From NCBI RefSeq assembly GCF_021379005.1, contig NZ_CP075171.1, positions 558,001 through 622,000 of the forward strand: a stretch of 64,000 nt of DNA, written 5' to 3'. Positions 34,983 through 36,587 of this stretch are shown one piece after another. Source of the DNA: Leptodesmis sichuanensis A121. GTDB lineage: Bacteria > Cyanobacteriota > Cyanobacteriia > Leptolyngbyales > Leptolyngbyaceae. Within the stretch, counting starts at the first letter, position 1. Each line of letters opens with the position of its first letter. The notes under the pieces were generated by a model, which saw nothing but the letters and a program-made list of their open reading frames with translations, did not search any database and was not told the origin of the DNA. The position numbers and the translations under genes were made by a program.

Positions 34983-35885
34983 CTATTCTTCTTTGATGCC
35001 CAGCACCATTTGCAGAACAAAGGGAACGCCTCCCACCTGATGGTATCTATCAGCCCAGGCGCGGATCACCTCGTCCAGTTCTTCCATTGCCTGATCAATT
35101 CGTTCTGGAGGAATATCCAGTTCTTCCAGAATCCTCATCACCTTGGGTTCCCGGTTTGCCCAGTCATTCATCAGGCGGAAGTAGCGAGCCGTATCCTCCA
35201 CCATGATGTAGGTGCGTTCTTCCTCAGCTTCGGGAGAGTAGGAAGCTCGCGTCAGGGCGTAGAAAGGCATTCCCCAGGGAGAATCAATGCGAGTCACCGT
35301 ACCGGAATAAAGTAAACGTCGGCGAATGTGTTCTGATAATGCTTCACTCAGGGGCATCCGGCGATCGGGGGGCAGGTCTTCCTGAGAACGAGCGTGCAGA
35401 GACTCCACTAAATCTAAAAACTCGTAGGAGCTAATCACCTGAGCATCCGGCAGATTTCCTTGAGGTAGCTTTTGCTCAATCTGCCGTTTTTCCTCACTGG
35501 TTAAACTGGTGGCGGCAATGCGCGATCGTCCGGGTTGCCAGGGAAACTGCTCCAGCCAAATGTAGGGAAATTGAATCAGATACCGGGGTTCCTGAGATCC
35601 CAGCATCTTCAATAACTTACCCTCTGTCAGGGCTTCCCGCACCTCTTCCACAATGGCCTTTACACGCTTTGGCTCAATGTGATGTAAATGTCCCGTCATC
35701 CGCAGGTTTTGATCCTGCTCCAGATAGGTCATATAAATGGCGCATTTAGCCGCCGTTGCCGCTGCATCCAGAAAGGCTCCGTGACGATGCCCACTGGTTC
35801 GCATGGCACTGAAGGCAAGGTATAACATGATCTGATCCATCGCACTGGGACTGAGGCGTTTGATCAGATCGAGGTCGTTAGTCAT
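34983..35885 (-). CDS. hetR: Heterocyst/pattern differentiation regulator HetR
   Basis: HetR is the master DNA-binding regulator of heterocyst differentiation and is also present in many filamentous species without heterocysts. From ATG 35885 the protein is 300 residues (Anabaena HetR 299), starting [22 protein letters not shown]; an ATG 18 bases upstream is less consistent with the family. [32 protein letters not shown] includes Cys48; SS at 152-153 corresponds to the Ser152 region; [24 protein letters not shown] and [17 protein letters not shown] form the hood, to which RGSGR peptides bind. A patX-like gene lies upstream on the same strand. Confidence 0.97.
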
Positions 35886-35978
35886 TTCAATAAGGTTACC
35901 CATTTAGAACCATGATGCAAAGGAGATTCTTAGCGCTAATCCTCGCTTACAATCCTTGTTTTACAGCGGATGAATCTA

Positions 35979-36266
35979 TAAACCTTGTCATAATCTAAAC
36001 CTTGTTCAAGCTCAGACCCGTAGTTTCTCGGATCGAAAAACGACCGTTCTCTAGCTGGACTTGGTTTAGAACCATAGTTTCTCTTATCAAAAAACTCCAG
36101 TTCCCTGGTTGGACTTGGTTTAGTTAGGCAACACACAGAATATCGCAGCAATCCCTGATGGAATAAAGGCCAAATCATCCAAAAAGAGAGATATAAACCT
36201 TGTCCAAGCCCGGAACCGTAGTTTCTCTGACAGGAAAACGACCGTTCTCTAGCTGGACTTGGTTTA
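35979..36266. repeat. Cluster of the 73-bp repeat (copies B, B' and C)
   Basis: Copy B at 35996-36068 and copy C at 36194-36266 are full 73-bp units, with B' (36069-36122, truncated at its start) fused head-to-tail to B, and a further stub TAAACCTTGTCATAA at about 35979. All face the same way and fill the hetR upstream region, so they lie in or near its promoter. A minus-strand open frame through them is only repeat sequence. Confidence 0.88.
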
Positions 36267-36368
36267 GCTTTTAATTTCTATAGTATTGCCTAATTTACCT
36301 AGTTTTCCGCAATTCTCCTTGTAAAGTTGGCATTTTTAAGTTAATTAGAAGGGCAAGTAGTCCGACTC

Positions 36369-36587
36369 TCAGGCCAGCGATCGCTCCAGCCATTGATAAG
36401 ACTCCAGACGACCACTGCCTCGATGTCTGGGCAGCCCTCCATTACCTCTCACAATTACTTGATTGATAGCAGGAGCCTGGAGACTGGCCAAAGAAAGATA
36501 TTGCAGAGATGGGGTGTTTTCGTAGTTTGAAGAAACCGATACCGTCAGCAGTAAGCCAGCTACTAAGAGAGAAGTGAGAAGACGCAT
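36369..36587 (-). CDS. patX: PatX-like RGSGR-containing secreted small protein
   Basis: 72 residues: a hydrophobic signal-like N-terminus MRLLTSLLVAGLLLTVSVSS, a short linker, then GGLPRHRGSGRLESYQWLE with the pentapeptide RGSGR at 56-60 preceded by histidine. PatS, HetN and PatX carry RG(S/T)GR peptides that bind HetR and block its DNA binding, and PatX occurs in filamentous cyanobacteria that have hetR. The gene lies about 480 bp upstream of hetR on the same strand. No Shine-Dalgarno precedes ATG 36587. Export and processing to a peptide are inferred. Confidence 0.85.
   Translation of the reverse strand: MRLLTSLLVAGLLLTVSVSSNYENTPSLQYLSLASLQAPAINQVIVRGNGGLPRHRGSGRLESYQWLERSLA

Follow-up and report, generated by a model that had tools for sequence, protein, structure and literature searches.

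In Nostoc 7120, PatX is exported and cut by PatP into the hexapeptide HRGTGR, which binds and inactivates HetR, and this is the only organism in which export, processing to the hexapeptide and HetR inhibition have all been demonstrated (PMC12756182). The association of patX with hetR among filamentous cyanobacteria was published by Elhai & Khudyakov 2018, as relayed in PMC7761841 and PMC11298460, and the idea of an ancestral module, in the form in which PMC7761841 restates it, comes from the same work. The closest tested system is that of Leptolyngbya BL0902, a non-heterocystous filamentous strain in which patX directly precedes hetR in the same orientation (GFS31_32390-32400) behind a predicted DIF1 promoter, with predicted co-transcription of the two genes; this is the pair that was deleted in PMC11298460. 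From the transcriptomes of the patX, hetR and double mutants its authors concluded that PatX is basically or largely independent of HetR (PMC11298460).

The locus described here lies in a window of 64,000 nucleotides from Leptodesmis sichuanensis A121, to which all positions refer unless another sequence is named. It resembles the BL0902 locus in gene order, strand, predicted promoter and, presumably, type of strain, whereas it differs in two respects: BL0902 is without nif genes and our genome has nifU-nifH-nifD, and dispersed repeats sit in the spacer of our pair. PatX of Nostoc/Anabaena PCC 7120 is likewise a short precursor with a hydrophobic Sec-type N-terminus, an H-RG(S/T)GR motif and a DIF1 promoter, although it carries RGTGR where ours has RGSGR and TCCGGA where ours has TCCTGA (Elhai & Khudyakov 2018; PMC7761841; PMC12756182). 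PatS is also a source of a HetR-inhibiting RGSGR peptide, but it is very short (17 aa) and its processing is thought to be cytoplasmic (PMC12756182). The pairing and the predicted DIF1 promoter are already published for BL0902, and the window adds another case. The patX-hetR module is real, is conserved in the relatives of the strain and is an expected example of something described. As to PatS itself, Elhai and Khudyakov in 2018 reportedly found it in some heterocyst formers only.

The regulator is an ORF of 306 codons on the minus strand (34983-35903), recognised by Pfam and NF009718 matches and by alignment to crystal sequences. It scored 577 bits against NF009718, the HetR equivalog, whose cut-off is 489, and contained the Pfam domains Peptidase_S48 and HetR_C (the hood domain; HetR_C 146.7 bits). 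The ORF aligned full-length and closely to the HetR crystal sequences (4hri). Since the homology begins only at Met7, the start of hetR is probably at 35885. The arginine equivalent to R223, a residue required for PatS binding (PMC7476756), is conserved in this alignment, and HetR is intact here.

Upstream of hetR and also on the minus strand, we found an ORF of 72 aa (36369-36587) with a hydrophobic N-terminus, whose translation is MRLLTSLLVAGLLLTVSVSS...PRHRGSGRLESYQWLERSLA. The predicted mature hexapeptide HRGSGR occupies residues 55-60 (codons at 36408-36425, minus strand). The preliminary description had given this ORF, its motif and a distance of about 480 bp to hetR correctly; up to the hetR ORF as annotated the spacer measures 465 bp, and up to Met7 483 bp. 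The signal-like character of the N-terminus was judged by hydrophobicity alone (maximum 12-residue Kyte-Doolittle mean of 2.62). A small size combined with RG(S/T)GR is one of the traits of PatX, and the ORF has it. However, the 5.35-Mb genome contained the coarse RG(S/T)GR-type DNA pattern 109 times and its reversed control 143 times; therefore, being no commoner than in the control, the motif alone is weak evidence, and the ORF is significant because of its position, its promoter and its conservation.

Those three features also decide whether the ORF is simply a chance reading frame that contains RGSGR. The commonness of the coarse pattern and a score below the cut-off of the PatX model NF047413 speak for chance, whereas the position, the hydrophobic N-terminus, the motif context and the promoter spacing are conserved in 33 copies. 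Synteny and promoter spacing thus rule the chance reading out, and we regard its probability as practically nil. The ORF is a genuine patX, and the earlier suggestion of a PatX-like product is upheld by synteny, by the DIF1-type promoter and by the context of the motif.

Regarding the synteny, 80 named hetR loci from other genomes were compared. In 32 of them, nearly all from Leptolyngbyaceae-type or other non-nostocalean genomes, hetR was preceded at 0.2-1 kb by an RGSGR ORF with a hydrophobic N-terminus in the same orientation. When the comparison was confined to the best hetR loci from whole genomes of relatives, leaving out the window genome, 26 of 29 had an RGSGR ORF upstream; this set overlaps the 80 named loci. 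The adjacency that had been proposed for the window is upheld, and most relatives of Leptolyngbyaceae type share it. In the nostocalean hetR loci examined, which did not include PCC 7120, no patX adjoined hetR within the covered flanks. The loci of Oscillatoria, Laspinema and Phormidium pseudopriestleyi, some on short contigs, had no adjoining RGSGR ORF either. The residue before RGSGR was His in 31 of the 33 copies (window included), matching the hexapeptide HRGTGR, the HetR inhibitor according to PMC12756182, and Asn in the other two. Some further relatives outside these 33 copies had Tyr at this position.

The promoter of patX is conserved as well. In the window, TCCTGA stands at 36643-36648 (minus strand), 61 nt before the ATG, as a DIF1-type -35 element in agreement with the published patX promoter, and the same hexamer was found 58-68 nt before the chosen start in all 33 copies, window included (in the locus L042 it was read directly from the sequence). 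As background, 2345 random blocks of 360 bp were taken from these loci, and 104 of them contained TCCTGAT. This variant of DIF1 emerged from our own alignment and is one base from TCCGGA, which precedes the start of transcription by around 35 bp in DIF1 promoters (PMC7377430). By that spacing, the patX transcript would start near 36613, and the likely -10 element is GTATCA (36624-36619, minus strand). Sites of the form TCCTGA-N15-19-GTAWCA numbered 12 in the genome, patX included, against 4 in the reversed control, and the other sites had no obvious shared target.

The gene upstream of patX is ndhH (36742-37926, minus strand), and a perfect intrinsic terminator at 36682-36705 (minus strand) separates the two. 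Between patX and hetR no terminator was detected on the minus strand, therefore transcription of patX may continue into hetR, and co-transcription of the pair would be allowed. The spacers of the relatives measured 191-890 bp. As a candidate for a conserved promoter near hetR, only a weak enrichment of TTTAAGC emerged, and the HetR site GGGN5CCC appeared in the spacer of one relative only. Rfam returned nothing credible.

Taking these results together with the work on Nostoc 7120 and Leptolyngbya, we favour, with a probability of roughly 75%, the view that this is the patX-hetR module of a filamentous cyanobacterium outside the Nostocales, with a DIF1-type promoter of its own for patX, and that an exported HRGSGR inhibits HetR. 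Behind the ndhH terminator, patX would be driven from its own promoter with TCCTGA at -35, and its transcription may extend into hetR. The precursor of 72 aa would probably be exported by means of its hydrophobic N-terminus and then cut to HRGSGR, which would bind the hood domain of HetR in the same or in neighbouring cells and make HetR leave the DNA. Differentiation along the filament would thereby be subject to negative feedback. By homology, the same chain of export, cleavage and inhibition, with HRGSGR as the peptide, is the most likely course of events in this strain.

The main caution against HetR inhibition comes from BL0902, the closest tested system. PatX might be a real secreted peptide whose target in this lineage is chiefly something other than HetR, in which case the adjacency of the genes would reflect shared regulation and not an inhibitor beside its target. 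What speaks for such a peptide is that two gene groups in BL0902 behaved alike in the double mutant and in the patX mutant, and in the opposite way in the hetR mutant (PMC11298460). Against this, dozens of diverged genomes retain RGSGR with its preceding His next to hetR, and the HetR residue that peptide binding requires in Nostoc is conserved here. We consider a different target unlikely, although it deserves some weight, and we keep the inhibition of HetR by HRGSGR as the preferred reading.

Regarding the detection of patX by models, the preliminary description had asked for a comparison with PatX families. The window PatX did match NF047413, the NCBI PatX model, but with 17.1 bits it stayed under the cut-off of 30. 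Actually, only one of the 58 related genomes searched had a match above the cut-off, though most of the hetR loci examined have an upstream RGSGR ORF; in a genome with a PatX above the cut-off (G055), patX is preceded by TCCGGA. The cut-off is a property of the detection model and not a biological definition, and we read the low score as the effect of a narrow model, not as exclusion from PatX. The published PatX count used Pfam and PGAP models, with the trusted cut-offs as thresholds, together with a signal-peptide filter, and it reported a large class with hetR and without patX, for which a Leptolyngbya served as an example (PMC12756182). Because NF047413 misses most hetR-adjacent PatX at its cut-off, threshold-based surveys such as this one probably undercount patX, and we suspect that some members of the class merely escaped detection. 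For Leptolyngbya-type genomes, the published numbers with hetR and no patX may be artefacts of a model tuned to other clades, and if so, this bears on when the peptide and its regulator became a pair. A 22-bit match to PatX at genome position 1611047, considered as a possible second patX, was discarded, as inspection of forward frames there revealed no RGSGR.

The genome also carries nifH (470 bits, L166, G000:C1 5296705-5297520), flanked by nifU-like and nifD-like ORFs that were read from the DNA itself. The genome thus encodes nitrogenase (nifU-nifH-nifD). The pair adds a clear case of HetR and PatX outside the usual heterocyst formers, and a strain with nif genes is a useful place to ask what the pair does where there are no heterocysts.

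One further element lies in front of patX, a dyad TCCGTATCA-N13-TGATACGGA (36597-36627, minus strand), which is partly conserved and overlaps the presumed -10 element GTATCA and the start region. Counted on 26 sequences, its arms form 72% standard pairs, above slid controls, and its covariation score exceeded all 500 shuffles, although no more than six cells had changes in both arms. A conserved RNA hairpin was ruled out, since RNAalifold predicted no pairs and no consensus fold for the patX leader. With a transcript start near 36613 the left arm of the dyad would stay untranscribed. We regard the element as a weak lead, possibly a dyad at the DNA level. An unrecognised regulator could bind there and control the module in this nif-bearing lineage, where the module would pattern a fate other than the heterocyst (nitrogen-fixing or necridial cells), but we hold this to be quite unlikely.

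As for the repeats in the spacer, it holds one full and one partial copy of a dispersed repeat of 73-77 bp at 35993-36123 and a further copy at 36191-36267. The preliminary description was right about their presence and had added that they may affect the control of the pair. The idea of a control device for hetR (an attenuator, a processing site or an insulator) draws on their position between patX and hetR, where they could affect read-through, and on the long hairpin of about -27 to -28 kcal/mol into which one 77-nt copy folds. However, other copies lie in the window at 31810-31886, 59659-59732 and 60238-60311, the genome has at least 44 matches (40 of 288 candidates scored), and the hetR loci of 80 relatives contain no copy, their spacers spanning 191-890 bp without repeats. 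Being genome-wide and absent from those loci, the repeats fall outside the patX-hetR module; an element specific to hetR is ruled out, the suggested role in control does not stand, and we find such a device very unlikely. They resemble a mobile or REP-like element, specific to the lineage, that came to lie at this site.

Some relatives depart from the common arrangement. In one of them (G017), patX and hetR are on different contigs (L143 on G017:C374 and L130 on G017:C2); its patX keeps TCCTGA and a similar dyad, and it is an apparent exception to adjacency. In four loci (L035, L037, L042 and L043) the ORF upstream of hetR has 29-40 aa, a size that approaches PatS, and ends exactly at RGSGR. 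Finally, the locus L103 encodes a PatX of 118 aa with three copies of RGSGR, 555-681 bp upstream of hetR.
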